Positions 3,820-10,015 of a stretch of DNA of 51,818 nucleotides are shown here, in pieces; position 1 is the stretch's first letter, and each line of letters opens with the position of its first letter. The DNA lies in NCBI GenBank assembly GCA_009837445.1, contig VXTM01000021.1, positions 390,271 through 442,088 on the forward strand. The letters run 5' to 3'. The translations under genes and the position numbers were made by a program. Under the pieces are notes generated by a model that was given only the letters and a program-made list of their open reading frames with translations, made no database searches and had not been told where the DNA came from. The stretch comes from Acidimicrobiaceae bacterium (GTDB taxonomy: Bacteria > Actinomycetota > Acidimicrobiia > Acidimicrobiales > Aldehydirespiratoraceae).

Positions 3820-6552
3820 ATGACCGACAACTTCCTGCGCCAGCTGCCCGACACCGACTCGGCCGAGACCCAGGAGTGGATCGACTCGCTCGACGCGGTG
3901 GTGGCCGCCGGGGGGCGGGAGAGGGCCCGCTACATCGTGGCCAAGCTGCTCGAGCGGTCCAACGAGCAGCAGCTGGGCGTGCCGCCCACCACCTACACGC
4001 CCTACATCAACACCATCCCGGCCTCGGAGCAGCCCTTCTTCCCCGGCAACGAGCAGGTCGAGCGCCGCATCCGGCGCTTTATCCGGTGGAACGCGGCAGC
4101 CATGGTGATCAGGGCCAATAAGACCGCCGACGGGATCGGCGGCCACCTGTCCACCTTCGCCTCGTCGGCCTCGCTGTACGAGGTGGGCTTCAACCACTTC
4201 TTCAAGGGCAAGGACGACGGCCTGGTCGGTGACCACATCTACTTCCAGGGCCACGCCGCCCCCGGCGTGTACGCCCGGGCCTACCTGGAGGGTCGCCTGT
4301 CGGAGCGGCAGCTCGACAACTTCAGGATGGAGGTGGGCGGCAACGGGCTGTCCAGCTACCCCCACCCCCGCCTGATGCCCGACTTCTGGGAGTACCCGAC
4401 GGTGTCTATGGGCCTCGGCCCGATCAACTCCATCTACCACGCCCGTTTCAACCGCTACATCCACAACCGGCGCATCGACGACACGTCAGAAAGCACGGTG
4501 TGGTGCTTCCTCGGCGATGGCGAATGCGACGAGCCCGAGACTCTGGGCGCCATCTCGCTCGCCGGCCGCAACGGGCTGGACAACCTCAAATGGGTGGTCA
4601 ACTGCAACCTGCAGCGCCTCGACGGGCCGGTCCGGGGCAACAGCAAGATCATCCAGGAGCTCGAGGGCGTGTTCCGGGGCGCGGGCTGGAACGTGATCAA
4701 GGTGATCTGGGGCTCCAGGTGGGACGAACTGCTGATGCGCGACACCGACGGCGCCCTGCTCAACAAGATGGCAACCACCGTGGACGGCGAGTACCAGCGC
4801 TACGCGGTGGAAACGGGCGCCTACATCCGCGAGCACTTCTTCGGACCCGATCCCCGGCTCCGAAAGCTCGTCGAGCACCTCTCCGACGAGGACCTGCGAG
4901 TTCTGCCGAGGGGCGGCCACGACTACCAGAAGGTCTACGCCGCGTTCAAGGCGGCCGTCGAGGTCAAGGACCAGCCCACCGTGATCCTGGCCAAGACGAT
5001 CAAGGGATGGACCCTGGGACAGGGTTTCGAGGGCCGCAACGCCACCCACCAGATCAAGAAGATGACCACCTCGCAGTTGATGGAGCTGCGGTCGCGGCTG
5101 CACATGGAGAACGAGATCGCCGAAGAGGACCTCGCCGACGGCATCCCCCCGTACTACCGGCCGGCTCCCGACTCCGAGGAGATCCGGTACATGATGGATC
5201 GCCGCCGGGCCCTCGACGGTGCGGTGCCCCGCCGGGTGGTCCGGGACCGGCGACCAATCGTGCCCCCTGCCGACGGTCCCTTCCTTGACGTGCGCAAGGG
5301 GTCGGGCGGGCGGAAGGTGTCCACCACCATGGCCTTCACCGGCCTGCTGCGGGACCTGCTGCGGGACCTGAACTTCGGTCCCCGCGTCGTGCCCATCGTC
5401 CCCGACGAAGCCCGAACCTTCGGCATGGACTCGCTGTTCCGGGAGTTCAAGATCTACGCGCCCCACGGCCAGCTCTACGAACCGGTCGACCACGACCTGC
5501 TGCTGAGCTACAGCGAGTCCTCCGACGGCCAGATCCTCGAGGAGGGCATCACGGAGTGCGGCTCGCTGGCGAGCTGGCTAGCCGCGGCCACGTCCTACGC
5601 CAACCTCGGCGTTCCCATGGTGCCCTTCTACGCGTTCTACTCGATGTTCGGCTTCCAGCGGGTGGGCGACTCCATATGGGCGGCTGCCGACGCCCGGGCC
5701 AGAGGCTTCCTCATCGGCGCCACGGCGGGGCGCACGACGCTGCCCGGCGAGGGACTGCAGCATCAGGACGGCCACAGCCATGTGCTGGCGTCCACCGTCC
5801 CCTCCTGCGAGGCCTACGACCCGGCCTTCGCCTACGAACTGGGGGCCATCATCGACGACGGCCTGCGCCGCATGTGCCCGCCCGACGCCGGCGACGGAAC
5901 CGACGTCTTCTACTACATCACGATCTACAACGAGAACTACGAGCAGCCGCCCCGGCCCGACCACGTGAGCGACGAGGACATCTGCAGCGGCCTCTACAAG
6001 TTCGACGACGGGCCGGGCGGGCGCGGTCGCTGCGCCACCATCCTGTTCTCGGGCGCGTCGGTGGGCGCCGCGCTCGAAGCCCAGGCGCGGCTGGCCGCCG
6101 ACCATGACGTCTCCGCCGAACTGTGGAGCGCCACCTCCTACCAGCGCTTGCGCCGGGAGGCCCTCGACGTCGAGCGCCGGAGCCGCCTGAACCCCGGGAG
6201 CGATCCGGTCGTCCCTCTTGTCACCCGGAGGCTGTCGGACTCCGACGGCCCGATCGTGGCCGTGACCGACTACATGACTCTGGTCCCCGACCAGATCGCC
6301 CGCTTCACGCCCAGGCCCCTGCACGTGCTGGGCACCGACGGGTTCGGCCGCTCGGACACCCGCGAGGCGCTCCGGCGGTTCTTCGAGGTGGACGCCGACC
6401 ACATCGTGGTAGCCGTGCTGTCAGCCCTGGTGGCCTTGGGTGAGGCCGAGCCGGACGAGGTGGCCGCGGCCATGGAGCGCTACGGCATCGACGCCGAACG
6501 CGACGATCCGGGCCATCCCGACACCGGCGCAAGATTATGCTCCGATCGATGA
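3820..6552 (+). CDS. aceE: pyruvate dehydrogenase E1 component, homodimeric type
   Basis: The thiamine diphosphate-dependent E1 decarboxylates pyruvate and acetylates the lipoyl group of E2. At 910 residues it has the full length of AceE. The TPP/Mg motif starts GDGECDEPETLG at residue 232 and ends at VVNCN (Asn263). Other family blocks are GGNGLSSYPHPRLMPDFWEYP and, in the second half, FYSMFGFQRVGD and GEGLQHQDGHSHV. The C-terminal domain ends in VVAVLSALVALGEAEPDEV. The E2 and E3 genes are close by but on the other strand. The stop overlaps the next gene (ATGA), so aceE probably leads an operon that includes the two selenocysteine redoxins. Confidence 0.97.
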   Translation: MTDNFLRQLPDTDSAETQEWIDSLDAVVAAGGRERARYIVAKLLERSNEQQLGVPPTTYTPYINTIPASEQPFFPGNEQVERRIRRFIRWNAAAMVIRANKTADGIGGHLSTFASSASLYEVGFNHFFKGKDDGLVGDHIYFQGHAAPGVYARAYLEGRLSERQLDNFRMEVGGNGLSSYPHPRLMPDFWEYPTVSMGLGPINSIYHARFNRYIHNRRIDDTSESTVWCFLGDGECDEPETLGAISLAGRNGLDNLKWVVNCNLQRLDGPVRGNSKIIQELEGVFRGAGWNVIKVIWGSRWDELLMRDTDGALLNKMATTVDGEYQRYAVETGAYIREHFFGPDPRLRKLVEHLSDEDLRVLPRGGHDYQKVYAAFKAAVEVKDQPTVILAKTIKGWTLGQGFEGRNATHQIKKMTTSQLMELRSRLHMENEIAEEDLADGIPPYYRPAPDSEEIRYMMDRRRALDGAVPRRVVRDRRPIVPPADGPFLDVRKGSGGRKVSTTMAFTGLLRDLLRDLNFGPRVVPIVPDEARTFGMDSLFREFKIYAPHGQLYEPVDHDLLLSYSESSDGQILEEGITECGSLASWLAAATSYANLGVPMVPFYAFYSMFGFQRVGDSIWAAADARARGFLIGATAGRTTLPGEGLQHQDGHSHVLASTVPSCEAYDPAFAYELGAIIDDGLRRMCPPDAGDGTDVFYYITIYNENYEQPPRPDHVSDEDICSGLYKFDDGPGGRGRCATILFSGASVGAALEAQARLAADHDVSAELWSATSYQRLRREALDVERRSRLNPGSDPVVPLVTRRLSDSDGPIVAVTDYMTLVPDQIARFTPRPLHVLGTDGFGRSDTREALRRFFEVDADHIVVAVLSALVALGEAEPDEVAAAMERYGIDAERDDPGHPDTGARLCSDR

Positions 6553-7139
6553 CCCCCACTGCGACGGGAACTCTGGCGGTCACCGGAGACGAGGCCGCCG
6601 ACCGGCTGGTGAACAACGACCCGCTGGCGCTGGTGCTGGGGATGCTGCTCGACCAGCAGATTCCCATGGAGTGGGCGTTCATGGGCCCTCACCGTCTGGC
6701 CGAACGGCTCGGATCGGAGTTGGACGCCCACGACATCTCGGAGCGCGACCCCGAGGACTTCGCGACACTGGTCAGGGCCAAGCCGGCCCTGCACCGTTTC
6801 CCCGGATCGATGGCCCAGCGGATGCAGTCCCTGTGCCGGCACGTCGCCGACTGCTACGGCGGCGACGCGGGCGCAATCTGGGCTGACGCCGTCACCGGCG
6901 AGGAGCTCTTCGGGCGTTTGCGGGACCTGCCCGGCTACGGCGACGAGAAGGCCCGGATCCTGACCGCGGTGCTGGCCAAGCGCTTCGGTGTGCAGCCGGA
7001 GGGCTGGCAGGAGCAGGCCGGAGCGTTCTCGGACGACCAGCCCCGGTCGGTGGCCGACATCGACGGACCCGAGTCTCTCCAGCGGGTCCGGGCCTGGAAG
7101 AAAGCCCAGAAGGCGCGCGGCAAGAAGAAGGACGAATGA
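6549..7139 (+). CDS. HhH-GPD-family protein (TIGR03252-like)
   Basis: A 196-residue protein from the preferred ATG at 6549, which overlaps the aceE stop as ATGA; an upstream ATG at 6537 would add four residues. The segment NDPLALVLGMLLDQQIPMEW and the helix-hairpin-helix-like FGRLRDLPGYGDEKARI match an actinobacterial group within the HhH-GPD base-excision-repair superfamily. A catalytic lysine of DNA glycosylases is not evident, so glycosylase activity is unproven. The C terminus is Lys-rich (KKAQKARGKKKDE). It is coupled on both sides: its own stop overlaps the start of the first redoxin. Confidence 0.8.
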   Translation: MTPTATGTLAVTGDEAADRLVNNDPLALVLGMLLDQQIPMEWAFMGPHRLAERLGSELDAHDISERDPEDFATLVRAKPALHRFPGSMAQRMQSLCRHVADCYGGDAGAIWADAVTGEELFGRLRDLPGYGDEKARILTAVLAKRFGVQPEGWQEQAGAFSDDQPRSVADIDGPESLQRVRAWKKAQKARGKKKDE

Positions 7140-7738
7140 GGTTCCGACCCATCACCTTCGCCGCGGCCATCGCCCTCGCGATGGTTGCCGCGGCCTGCGG
7201 CTCCGACGATCCGGTCACCGTCATCGAGACCACCGACCCGGAAGCCCCGGTAGAGCGGGAGGAGTCGTCCGCCACTTCGGCGGCTGACCCGTCCGAGACG
7301 GCCGGCAGCGCCGCGGCCACGGGGCCGGGCGATGTCCCGGACCTCCAGATGGTCGACGTGCACACCGACGAGGCCGTCAACCTCCAAGCGGTCGTCGACG
7401 GGTCCACTCCCCTGCTGTTCTGGTTCTGGGCGCCCCATTGACCGACCTGCCGGAGAGAGGGTCCGGCCCTTGAGCAGTTCGCTCAGGAGAACCCAGACAC
7501 CGTGAAGGTGGTGGGCATCGGCGCCCAGGACGACCTCGCCTACGCCCAGAACTTCGTCGAGCGGACCGGCACCACCTTCACCATGCTGTGGAGCGACTCC
7601 AACGAGTCCTGGCGCCACTTCGGTGTGCGCCGGAACTCCACCGTGCTACTGCTCGACCGCGGCGGCAACGTCGTGGAGGGAAGCGCCGGCAGCTACGACC
7701 CGGACAGCCTCATCGAGCAGCTGGCCACCATGACCTGA
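7136..7738 (+). CDS. selenocysteine-containing thioredoxin/TlpA-like lipoprotein (in-frame TGA = Sec102)
   Basis: Read through the TGA at 7439-7441, this is one 200-residue protein. A signal peptide ends in the lipobox VAAAC (residues 17-21), followed by a Glu/Ser/Ala spacer and a redoxin domain from about residue 70. Here FWFWAPH-U-PTCRREGPAL replaces the usual FWAPWCxxCRxExPxL, so Sec102 occupies the first redox position and Cys105 the second. The frame then continues as VKVVGIGAQDD, FGVRRNSTVLLLDRGG and a final helix, all typical of TlpA-like folds. The usual cis-Pro before the last strands appears replaced (RRNST). The start overlaps the upstream stop (ATGA). A hairpin follows the TGA. 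Alternatives are a nonsense mutation or frameshift, which the identical arrangement in the next gene argues against. Confidence 0.85.
7449..7467 (+). promoter_or_regulatory. candidate bacterial SECIS hairpin of redoxin 1
   Basis: Six perfect base pairs (7449-7454 GCCGGA with 7462-7467 TCCGGC) enclose a 7-nt purine loop, GAGAGGG. Counting the U of UGA as 1, the loop spans +17 to +23, with G23 next to U24. Position and size fit a bacterial SECIS, but no folding software was run. Confidence 0.55.
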
Positions 7739-7741
7739 GCG

Positions 7742-8890
7742 ATGACAGTGCCGCACCGATTCCGAGTTGCCGTGGCGCTCTCCGCTGCGGCCCTGCTGGC
7801 CTCAGCCTGCGGCACCGACGGGGAGCCGGGTCCAGACAGCGCGGACGCCGGGGCCGTGACGCCCACGACCAGCGCAGCGGTCGACACCGACTTCGCCGAG
7901 GCCCAAGCCGCTGAAGCCGAGGCCGAGGCTGAAGCCGCCGCGGCTGAGGCCGAGGCCGCCGCCCAGGCCGCCGCCGAAGCCGAAGCCCAAGCCGCCGAGG
8001 CAGAAGCCGAAGCCGCCTTAGCCGAAGCCGAGGCCCAAGCAGCCGCGGAGGCAGCCGCCCAGGCTGCTACCGAAGCCGAAGCCGCCGCCCGGGCCGCCGC
8101 CGAAGCCGAAGCCCAAGCCGCCGAAGCGGAGGCCGAGGCCGCCGCGGAGGCAGCCGCCCAGGCTGCTGCCGAAGCCGAAGCCGCCGCCCGGGCCGCCGCC
8201 GAAGCCGAAGCCGAGGCTGCCGCGGCCGCTGAAGCGCAGGCTGCTGCCGAAGCCGAAGCCGCCGCCCGGGCCGCCGCCGAAGCCGAAGCCCAAGCCGCCG
8301 CGGAGGCAGCCGCCCGGGCCGCCGCCGAAGCCGAAGCGGCGGCCGTAGCCGCAGCCGCAACCACGACGACTGCCGCACCCACCACTACCGCCGCGCCCAC
8401 CACCGCTGCCGCGCCCACCACCACTGCCGCGCCCACCACCACTGCAGCACCCACCAGCACCGCCGCCCCTGCGATCCTCGCGACCGACGTGCCCGATGAC
8501 GAGATGACCGACCTGCGCACCGGCGCGACGGTCAACCTTCGAGACTTCGTGGACGGTTCCACGCCGCTGCTGCTGTGGTTCTGGGCGCCCCATTGACCGA
8601 TCTGCCGGCGGGAGGCCTCGTCGGTCGAGCAGTTCGCTCGAGACAACGTAGACCGAGTGACCGTCATAGGCGTGGGCGGCACGGACAGTCTGTCCCAGGC
8701 CGAGAGCTTCCTGGCCTCCGCCGGAGGTCCCCCGATCATGCTCTGGGATGAGCGCCCGGACTCGTGGAGCCACTACAACGCCGGCAACCCCGCTCTCATA
8801 CTGCTCGACGGCGCGGGTGAGACCCGGGTCGAGAGGGTCGGCTCGTTCAACCGGAGCCGTCTCCAGGACGCGCTGGACAGCTTGAGCTAG
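7742..8890 (+). CDS. selenocysteine-containing redoxin lipoprotein with long Ala/Glu spacer (in-frame TGA = Sec285)
   Basis: A paralogue of the preceding gene, 382 residues when the TGA at 8594-8596 is read as Sec285. A signal peptide with lipobox LASAC (about residues 19-23) is followed by an extraordinary segment (about 52-204) made almost only of Ala, Glu and occasional Gln/Arg, predicted helical. Next comes a Thr/Ala/Pro linker (about 205-241) and then the redoxin domain, with LLLWFWAPH-U-PICRREAS. Cys288 is the resolving Cys. After the Sec the frame runs on as VTVIGVGGTDS and NPALILLDGAGE, keeping the cis-Pro that the first copy lacks. It starts 3 nt after the upstream stop. The N-terminal spacer would hold the domain away from the membrane or across the cell wall. 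Confidence 0.85.
7900..8350 (+). repeat. degenerate GCC/GAA repeat encoding the Ala/Glu spacer
   Basis: Within this low-complexity stretch a 51-bp core recurs at 8063-8113, 8162-8212 and 8240-8290 (offsets 99 and 78 bp), the first with one mismatch. Each core encodes 17 residues of Ala, Glu and one Arg. All offsets are multiples of three, so copies can be gained or lost without breaking the frame. Confidence 0.85.
8605..8624 (+). promoter_or_regulatory. candidate bacterial SECIS hairpin of redoxin 2
   Basis: 8605-8612 (CCGGCGGG) can pair with 8617-8624 (CTCGTCGG) with two G-U wobbles, closing an AGGC tetraloop at +20 to +23 from the UGA. The sequence differs from the first copy while the hairpin position is kept. 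Assigned by eye. Confidence 0.5.
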
Positions 8891-8892
8891 AC

Positions 8893-8970
8893 ATTTAACC
8901 TTCCGTTTACCGGCATTCACTCCCGGTTCACGGTCACATTCTCTGTCAGAAACCTGCCCCCCTCTAGCTT
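8893..8970 (+). promoter_or_regulatory. PHO box and -10 region of the pst operon
   Basis: A run of direct repeats spaced about 11 bp apart resembles PhoP/RegX3-type PHO boxes: TTTAACC (8894), GTTTACCGG (8905), ATTCACTCC (8915), GTTCACGGT (8926) and a weaker CATTCTCTG (8937). A TAGCTT -10 candidate at 8965-8970 lies 17 bp beyond the last unit, so the box would replace the -35 region. This suggests induction under phosphate limitation. Confidence 0.6.
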
Positions 8971-9031
8971 GCTTGCGGCTCGCGTGGCGCGGGCTCATGC
9001 CATGCCGTTTCCCCCAAGGAGGGACGACTGA

Positions 9032-10015
9032 GTGCGCAAACCAAGGCGCCGGCTGCTGTGGTTGCCGGTGATTCTCGTGACGCTGTCTCTGATGGCCGCA
9101 GCATGCGGTGGCGACGAGGTCGAAGAGGAGGCTTCCGCTGTCTCCGGCGAGGTGAGTATCTCGGGTTCGTCGACGGTTGAACCGATCTCGATCCGGGTGG
9201 CTGAGCTGTTCGAGGACGTGGCCCCGGACGTGTCGGTGACCGTGGACGGCCCGGGCACCGGCGACGGCTTCAAGCTGTTCTGCGAGGGCGCGACCGACAT
9301 CTCCGACGCCTCCCGCCAGATCAAGGACGCGGAGAAGGAGGACTGCTTCGAGGCCGGCATCACCGACATCGTCGAGCTCAAGGTTGCCGTCGACGGCATC
9401 GCGTTGATGACCAACGCCAGTAACGACGCCGTCGAGTGCCTGAGCTTCCACCAGCTCTTCGACCTCATCGGCCCCAACGGCGAGGGCACCAGCACCTGGG
9501 CCGAGGCCTCTGCGGGCCTACCCGATGCGCCGCTGGACATCTTCGGCCCCGGCGAGGAGTCAGGCACCTTCGACTCCTTCGTCGAGATCGTCCTCGAGGA
9601 CCAGGCCGAGGAAGCCGGCGTGGAGGCCACCACCCGCACCGACTACAGCCCGTCGGGCGACGACAACGTCATCCTGCAGGGCATCCAGTCCAGCGGCACC
9701 AGCTTGGGCTGGGTCGGCTTCGCCTTCGCCGTCAACGCCTCCGGCGTGAAGCTGCTCGAGGTCGACGGCGGCAACGGATGCGTCGAGCCCACCGAAGCCG
9801 CCATCGCCTCCAACGAGTACCCGGTCAGCCGGGACCTGTGGATCTACGTCAACGCGGACAAGGCCGCAGCCAACCCCGCAATCACCGCCTACCTCGACTT
9901 CTACGTCTCCGACGCCCTCACCCAGGCCGTCAACGAGGTCGGCTACATACCCCTCACCGACGCAGCCCACACCGAGACCGCAGACCGCTGGCACAACCGC
10001 ACCCTCATCAGCTAG
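9032..10015 (+). CDS. pstS: phosphate ABC transporter substrate-binding lipoprotein
   Basis: This lipoprotein captures inorganic phosphate outside the membrane and delivers it to PstCA. The GTG start at 9032 has an AAGGAGGG site at 9016-9023. The 327 residues begin with a signal peptide ending in lipobox MAAAC, then SISGSSTVEPIS, which forms the phosphate-binding loop. ISDASRQIKDAE, VAVDGIALMTN and GPGEESGTFDSF are further PstS blocks. It opens the pst operon behind the PHO box; a repeat-rich 80-bp gap separates it from pstC and may allow higher PstS levels. Confidence 0.96.
   Translation: MRKPRRRLLWLPVILVTLSLMAAACGGDEVEEEASAVSGEVSISGSSTVEPISIRVAELFEDVAPDVSVTVDGPGTGDGFKLFCEGATDISDASRQIKDAEKEDCFEAGITDIVELKVAVDGIALMTNASNDAVECLSFHQLFDLIGPNGEGTSTWAEASAGLPDAPLDIFGPGEESGTFDSFVEIVLEDQAEEAGVEATTRTDYSPSGDDNVILQGIQSSGTSLGWVGFAFAVNASGVKLLEVDGGNGCVEPTEAAIASNEYPVSRDLWIYVNADKAAANPAITAYLDFYVSDALTQAVNEVGYIPLTDAAHTETADRWHNRTLIS

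Follow-up and report, generated by a model that had tools for sequence, protein, structure and literature searches.

Two tandem genes for predicted selenocysteine-containing redoxin lipoproteins with unequal tethers in an Acidimicrobiaceae genome

We analyzed a window of 51,818 nucleotides (contig VXTM01000021.1, assembly GCA_009837445.1) from an Acidimicrobiaceae bacterium, in which two consecutive genes, A and B, very likely encode selenocysteine (Sec, U) lipoproteins of a TlpA/ResA/DsbE-like fold, judging from their sequences (Table 1). Each gene carries an in-frame TGA at the first Cys position of a CxxC motif inside a redoxin domain. Both positions (7439 and 8594), given in the original prediction, which had been made from the letters and their open reading frames (ORFs), were verified. 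We consider it probable (about 78%) that the pair represents two lipid-anchored extracytoplasmic UxxC thiol-disulfide oxidoreductases that are supplied with electrons by CcdA and reduce disulfides of the cell envelope.

In the proposed mechanism, both TGAs would be read as Sec at the first redox-active position; the Sec selenolate would make the nucleophilic attack, and resolution would fall to the downstream Cys. Electrons would pass from the membrane protein CcdA to the Sec redoxins, whose most likely role would be the reduction of cell-envelope protein disulfides or oxidised thiols. Owing to the unequal tethers, one domain may serve substrates near the membrane and the other those farther out.

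Redoxin domains and probable electron supply

The upstream HhH-GPD gene stops with a TGA that the ATG of gene A overlaps, and gene B follows gene A head to tail after a gap of 3 nt in a common reading frame; gene A itself ends in TGA (7736–7738) and gene B in TAG (8888–8890). Read through its internal TGA, gene A scores 59.2 bits against Redoxin (PF08534) and 44.9 bits against AhpC-TSA (PF00578), and gene B 30.6 and 34.4 bits, respectively (cut-offs 26.6 and 26). The N-termini are hydrophobic and contain the putative lipidation motifs VAAAC-GSD (A) and LASAC-GTD (B), judged by eye and with a loose lipobox pattern.

The structural model of gene A, with a predicted local distance difference test score (pLDDT) of 94–98 over residues 71–200, displays a thioredoxin fold in which the two redox residues start the first long helix. 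Its best matches in the PDB are 1lu4 (DsbE/MPT53) and 3ios (DsbF), followed by ResA, and a sequence profile search of solved structures ranked 3ios first (E 6.8e-35). This fold result applies to gene A only; the redoxin domain of gene B gave no confident model. Both proteins miss the NCBIfam cut-offs of the named subfamilies, with scores of 42.7 of 123.15 (dsbE), 38.8 of 170 (ResA) and 28 of 230 (TlpA) for gene A and 36.1 of 123.15 (dsbE) for gene B. Neither matches NF047660, the HUIPC motif thioredoxin-like selenoprotein, up to E 0.01.

The window genome, which is 94% complete, contains one CcdA-type gene (PF02683), adjoining a Cys-type relative of the two redoxins. Hereafter, Gnnn denotes a compared genome and Lnnn a locus, and f and g numbers denote family groups and genera within the class sample. 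In G106 (L191 6591–7481), a Sec redoxin is immediately preceded by a PF02683 gene whose stop overlaps the putative redoxin start, and a DoxD-like gene comes after. No VKOR match was found in the window genome; DsbB was not searched. The CcdA-type genes, together with the missing VKOR match, favor a reducing role. A selenol-first motif is, moreover, generally thought to favor fast reduction, which likewise counts against the alternative that the two Sec-containing proteins are oxidases that form disulfides in the manner of DsbE and DsbF of Mycobacterium tuberculosis. The oxidase alternative draws on the nearest structures, 3ios and 1lu4: according to PMC3853704, these proteins are oxidants in vitro, for which a DsbD- or CcdA-like partner was proposed, and their activity speaks against a reductase role for genes A and B. 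With the CcdA-type genes and the VKOR result set against it, we regard an oxidase function as unlikely, albeit with an appreciable residual chance.

Predicted readthrough, selenocysteine machinery and distribution

The original prediction had claimed that the DNA beyond each TGA continues to code for the same fold, and had proposed looking among homologues for downstream conservation and for Cys at the TGA column. All of this was borne out. Post-TGA differences at codon positions 1/2/3 numbered 6/4/14, 12/11/26 and 12/13/32 for gene A compared with G008, G009 and G002, respectively, and 3/2/8 for gene B compared with G008, a third-position bias that fades in distant gene B copies (29/25/32 against G010). 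The Pfam scores span the TGA, the conservation recurs in orthologues, and Cys occupies the column in database copies with CxxC and in one Cys-form site of the family. Specifically, 47 of 60 database homologues from a single search stop at the residue preceding the Sec position, and the other 13 have CxxC; we take the 47 short copies, seen as protein records only, to result from TGA-blind annotation.

Termination at the TGA would leave a whole putative signal peptide and tether in both genes, as expected if UGA were a selenium switch that gives Sec under a plentiful selenium supply and otherwise yields a short domain-less lipoprotein as the meaningful product. Against such a switch, nothing indicates that the truncated product is selected for: differences beyond the TGA show the third-position bias, and the Cys-form orthologue in G023 retains the full redox domain. 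We therefore hold the switch to be quite improbable.

The machinery that the original prediction had suggested searching for is present in the window genome, all of it above curated cut-offs: a tRNA-Sec with anticodon TCA (= UCA; 68.3 bits in the Rfam model, in agreement with ARAGORN), selB (277.9 bits, cut-off 242.25; profile positions 2–339, with a weak C-terminal piece within the same ORF), selA (370.9 bits, cut-off 267.9) and selD (359.6 bits, cut-off 125). An in-frame TGA also interrupts the selD gene (L018), within SHGAG-U-GCK, where U stands at what we take to be the catalytic Cys position. If a suppressor, or tRNA-Sec charged with Cys, inserted Cys or some other residue at UGA, the products would effectively be Cys proteins; Cys does suit the column, and Sec and Cys interchange among relatives. 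Nevertheless, the full Sec pathway and the TGA within selD oppose this explanation, as does the use of TGA as the ordinary stop of both the upstream gene and gene A, from which it follows that the genetic code is not altered as a whole. We consider such decoding very improbable.

All 51 family genomes match gene A in some way, distant relatives counted. The active sites read in 30 loci, chosen as best matches and after removal of one antisense chance match in L024, have TGA in 39 of 40 cases and TGT in one. Across the class, the TGA motif TGGTTYTGGGCNNNNHNNTGANNNNNNTGY occurs in 73 of 395 genomes (37 of 183 genera), and a backwards control pattern gave no match in the same 395 genomes. A nonsense change, through pseudogene formation or sequencing error, would look alike if it concerned one TGA in one gene, but this recurrence, the third-position-biased differences beyond the TGA and the conserved domain leave it a negligible chance; the original prediction had likewise argued that the shared interruption of two divergent paralogues is not easily put down to error or decay.

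The TGA form is linked with selA, a match to which was found in 50 of the 51 family genomes (49 above the cut-off). The exception, G023 (91% complete), is the genome to which the sole TGT (Cys) site belongs. Its Cys gene retains the downstream pst genes of the TGA-bearing congener G022, which has selA. The G023 readings cover one copy, the active site of the second being unreadable; the locus, L033, lies within L050 (JAPPJC010000027.1, Acidimicrobiaceae bacterium RHO2_bin_38). At the class level, selA exceeds the cut-off in 256 of 395 genomes, including 71 of the 73 with the TGA motif (all at E 7e-100 or better) versus 185 of the 322 others (Fisher p 4e-13, uncorrected for kinship and thus too small, given that the class genomes are related). 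By our own count, the APH-U form accounts for 33 of the 73 (f1, f2, f8, f14, f19, f36, f40, f51 and f59). The APH-Cys form was found in six named genomes, one of them the G023 record, and five of the six have no selA; the single named APH-U genome, L056, has selA and is labeled 'Actinomycetota bacterium' with no class stated. Of 547 relatives in the contig search with alignment A1 and the pattern WFWAP[HW]C, the best 80 were used; most of these were Cys forms.

A phylum sample of 396 genomes includes 358 from other classes. The TGA motif is matched in 20 of these, 17 as APW-U and three chance-like, and none of the 358 has APH-U. The original prediction had called such proteins unusual in an actinobacterium. 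This stands only in part: the TGA form is common in the class, and UxxC redoxin/TlpA-like selenoproteins are catalogued in PMC13188914.

WFWAPW-U-xxC constitutes a second, wider-spread TGA form, present within the class (e.g., L194, L195, L198 and L199) and in the 17 genomes outside it; most of its rows group with APW-Cys relatives in the domain tree. In L046 (G026, 1699–1713), a second in-frame TGA lies four codons past the first (WFWAPHUPTCU), and the matched stretch also contains a TAG; the locus may encode two Sec residues, be decaying or have been misassembled. L053, a metagenome-assembled genome of Sporichthya sp., carries two adjacent APH-Cys copies and has no selA match. In f34 (genus g95, genomes of ~1 Mb), selA is strong in 34 of 42 genomes by our own count, and none matches the redoxin TGA pattern.

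Tethers, hairpins and neighboring genes

Linker lengths, measured by a loose lipobox rule, differ between the two genes in the measured loci of the window genus: 27–45 residues for gene A (nine loci) and 198–298 for gene B (11 loci), the latter Glu-rich with an Ala fraction of 0.46–0.56. Two genus loci, L039 and L047, have only the B form. Tandem TGA pairs recur in f14 (three genomes; Pro/Thr-rich tethers of 41–47 versus 154–163 residues) and in G206 of f2 (38 versus 133). For the G016 pair (133, with no lipobox found, and 184), unequal tethers are unclear, and in the G022 pair one copy only was measurable. Some single copies are long as well, with 186–333 residues from the lipobox Cys to Sec in genus g10. 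Neither the recurrence of tandem pairs nor the stalk of gene B, described below, figured in the original prediction.

In a tree of 103 domains, the genus A and B forms fall in separate parts of the APH clade (forks 80–85), and both f14 forms lie inside one supported f14 clade (95), suggesting that the genus pair and the f14 pair likely arose separately. The tree is built on few columns, with 32 of 100 inner branches open; its 103 domains were obtained from 158 by randomly removing 55 of the 71 APW-Cys rows, and the domain set omits loci L078 and L081 and domains with fewer than 75 residues after the motif.

AlphaFold2 rendered residues 45–210 of gene B as one 166-residue helix (block pLDDT 92–97 over residues 61–200). 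At a helix rise of 0.15 nm per residue, the predicted stalk would be ~25 nm long, a length to be read as a prediction because the underlying model was computed from one sequence and the stretch is of low complexity. Fusion of A and B by read-through was considered as well: gene A ends in TGA in 12 of 12 genus loci (L020–L031), and in 11 of them an in-frame gene B start follows one codon later. We set it aside, as the gene B frame is shifted in L025 and gene B has a putative signal peptide of its own.

One could extend these observations to a two-arm surface selenium redox system of the Acidimicrobiia that evolved more than once, with one selenolipoprotein close to the membrane and another bearing its Sec domain ~25 nm out on a single Ala/Glu helix, electrons from CcdA relayed through the envelope, the speed of Sec exploited at the outer end and Cys adopted after loss of the Sec pathway. 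As a whole, this broader scheme seems improbable to us.

A candidate Sec insertion sequence (SECIS) hairpin follows each TGA (Table 1). Compared with synonymous recodings, the first 33 nt beyond the TGA form stabler folds across 39 related family sites (mean z −1.53, with p<0.05 at 14 of the 39), and the gene B hairpin does so individually (z −2.4, p 0.025). Among non-redundant sites (58 of 88 TGA and 58 of 78 Cys sites kept after an 85% identity filter and removal of sites with another stop nearby), the mean z was −0.61 (se 0.18) at TGA sites versus +0.19 (se 0.15) at Cys sites; other offsets within the TGA genes gave means of −0.32 to +0.50. One stem pair varies between A-U, C-G and G-C across sites. 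Covariation in a fixed register is weak, since A-type and B-type hairpins occupy different registers. The SECIS search proposed in the original prediction thus had a divided outcome: hairpins are present and stabler than recodings on average, but the published rule described below fails to discriminate. Overall, the hairpins lend moderate support to Sec insertion.

Several results weigh against reading the pair as CcdA-fed selenoprotein reductases. With regard to the hairpins, dinucleotide shuffles fold as well as the two window hairpins in 49 of 200 and 33 of 200 cases, and that of gene A is no better than its recodings (z 0.47). The published bacterial SECIS rule, as given in section 5 of PMC13188914, accepts 24 of 58 Sec sites versus 23.0 expected and separates Sec sites neither from their recodings nor from Cys sites. 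Several pair measures lie within the shuffle range (100 and 177 of 500 shuffles reach them), and the remaining ones are inflated by related sequences. An Rfam scan of 6500–9500 (E up to 1) returned no SECIS; its lone match, a sub-threshold clustered regularly interspaced short palindromic repeat (CRISPR), was taken as chance. The Rfam cut-off for tRNA-Sec is unspecific, being passed by one tRNA-Ser of the window genome and by 5 of 14 controls, so that the tRNA-Sec identification relies on the ARAGORN anticodon. As for distribution, the TGA-motif genomes G237 (79% complete) and G421 (82%) have no selA match, G007 and G014 of the window genus have selA yet no close A or B copy, and the APH-Cys genome L052 (Microthrixaceae) has selA, at the place where the same-order genome G136 has it (E 6.8e-135 in both).

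The active site provides a further point of this kind. The cis-Pro of thioredoxin-fold enzymes faces the active site, and by alignment the usual cis-Pro position is Ser in gene A; it is Pro in gene B and His in three long f14 copies. Ser occupies this position in the family rows outside the B clade and also in 46 of 71 APW-Cys rows. Being frequent among Cys relatives, it is not a Sec trait and leaves superfamily membership intact.

Gene context adds no substrate or partner either, as neighbors vary by clade. The pst neighborhood, seen in genera g1 and g5, was rejected as a functional clue. Elsewhere the redoxin gene sits between putative gyrase/topoisomerase genes (our own reading), close to a SURF1 gene, close to a molybdate-type transporter (as we interpret matches to ABC, TOBE and binding proteins) or behind a CcdA-type gene. 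Neighbor ORFs were called greedily as the longest, some of them on the wrong strand. Between gene B and pstS, positions 8905–8937 hold three 11-nt direct repeats (GTTTACCGGCA, TTCACTCCCGG and TTCACGGTCAC), presumably resembling a PHO box; pstS probably has its own promoter.

Table 1 Coordinates of genes A and B, their predicted elements and flanking genes within the window
Feature	Position	Strand	Description
Upstream HhH-GPD-family DNA glycosylase-like gene	6540..7139	+	Start position provisional
Gene A, predicted short-tether selenolipoprotein redoxin	7136..7738	+	200 aa with Sec; lipobox-like Cys21; linker of 42 residues; TlpA/redoxin domain about 66–197
Gene A in-frame TGA, predicted Sec codon U102	7439..7441	+	WFWAPH-U-PTC
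Candidate SECIS hairpin after gene A TGA	7449..7467	+	GCCGGA...UCCGGC
Gene B, predicted long-tether selenolipoprotein redoxin	7742..8890	+	382 aa with Sec; lipobox-like Cys23; linker of 223 residues; redoxin domain about 249–380
Gene B Ala/Glu-rich stretch	7874..8371	+	Residues 45–210, predicted single helix
Gene B in-frame TGA, predicted Sec codon U285	8594..8596	+	WFWAPH-U-PIC
Candidate SECIS hairpin after gene B TGA	8604..8625	+	GCCGGCGGG...CUCGUCGGU
Downstream phosphate-binding-protein-like gene (pstS)	9032..10015	+	Followed by permease-like and ATPase genes

Comparison with known systems

Most database copies (47 of 60) end before the Sec position, making the family easy to overlook. Judged by title and the start of the abstract within a limited library, no literature on such selenolipoproteins in Acidimicrobiia was found. 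G022 (TGA, selA) and G023 (Cys, no selA match), two members of one genus, offer a natural experiment on the benefit and loss of Sec, and the pairs of short and long tethers raise the question of whether redox enzymes stand at set distances across the cell envelope. According to PMC5649159, genome bins of sponge symbionts from several phyla are enriched in selA and selB; the present finding gives an expectation for these organisms.

UxxC selenoproteins named 'Redoxin family protein' (PF08534) and 'Thiol-disulfide isomerase-like protein' (cd02966) are catalogued in the consulted parts of PMC13188914, PMC9312934, PMC1088965 and PMC2398784, with further redoxin/TlpA-like examples in PMC1794560 and PMC5029168. 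They share with genes A and B the Sec at the first position of UxxC, a TlpA/redoxin-type thioredoxin fold and widespread Cys homologues. The same excerpts, which allow comparison by description only, do not name Acidimicrobiia, tandem paralogues, lipoprotein tethers or stalks.

M. tuberculosis DsbE (MPT53, 1LU4) and DsbF (3IOS) are the closest structures by both sequence and fold and are extracytoplasmic, as predicted for A and B, DsbF having the motif WFWAPWCPTC. They differ in carrying Cys for Sec and, in DsbF, Trp for the preceding His, in an identity of 26–28%, and in the role reported for them in PMC3853704, that of an oxidant in vitro. The CcdA- or DsbD-fed reductases ResA, CcmG and TlpA resemble genes A and B in fold, in the membrane anchor predicted for the latter and in position of CxxC, and a CcdA-type gene is present here, whereas A and B score far under the NCBIfam cut-offs for DsbE, ResA and TlpA; no cytochrome c maturation gene was seen among the few neighbors scanned. 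The HUIPC motif selenoprotein NF047660, named in PMC13188914, has the same H-U-x-x-C arrangement and a thioredoxin-like character, but the motifs here are HUPTC and HUPIC. Finally, the selenoprotein operons GrdA-GrdB, SAO and Tso, as described in section 9 of PMC13188914, also consist of adjacent selenoprotein genes; theirs encode subunits of one pathway, in contrast to the one-domain paralogues with unlike tethers encoded by A and B. New in relation to these systems are the APH-U clade seen in Acidimicrobiia, the recurrent tandem pairs, and the combination of a short and a long tether in most of the pairs measured.

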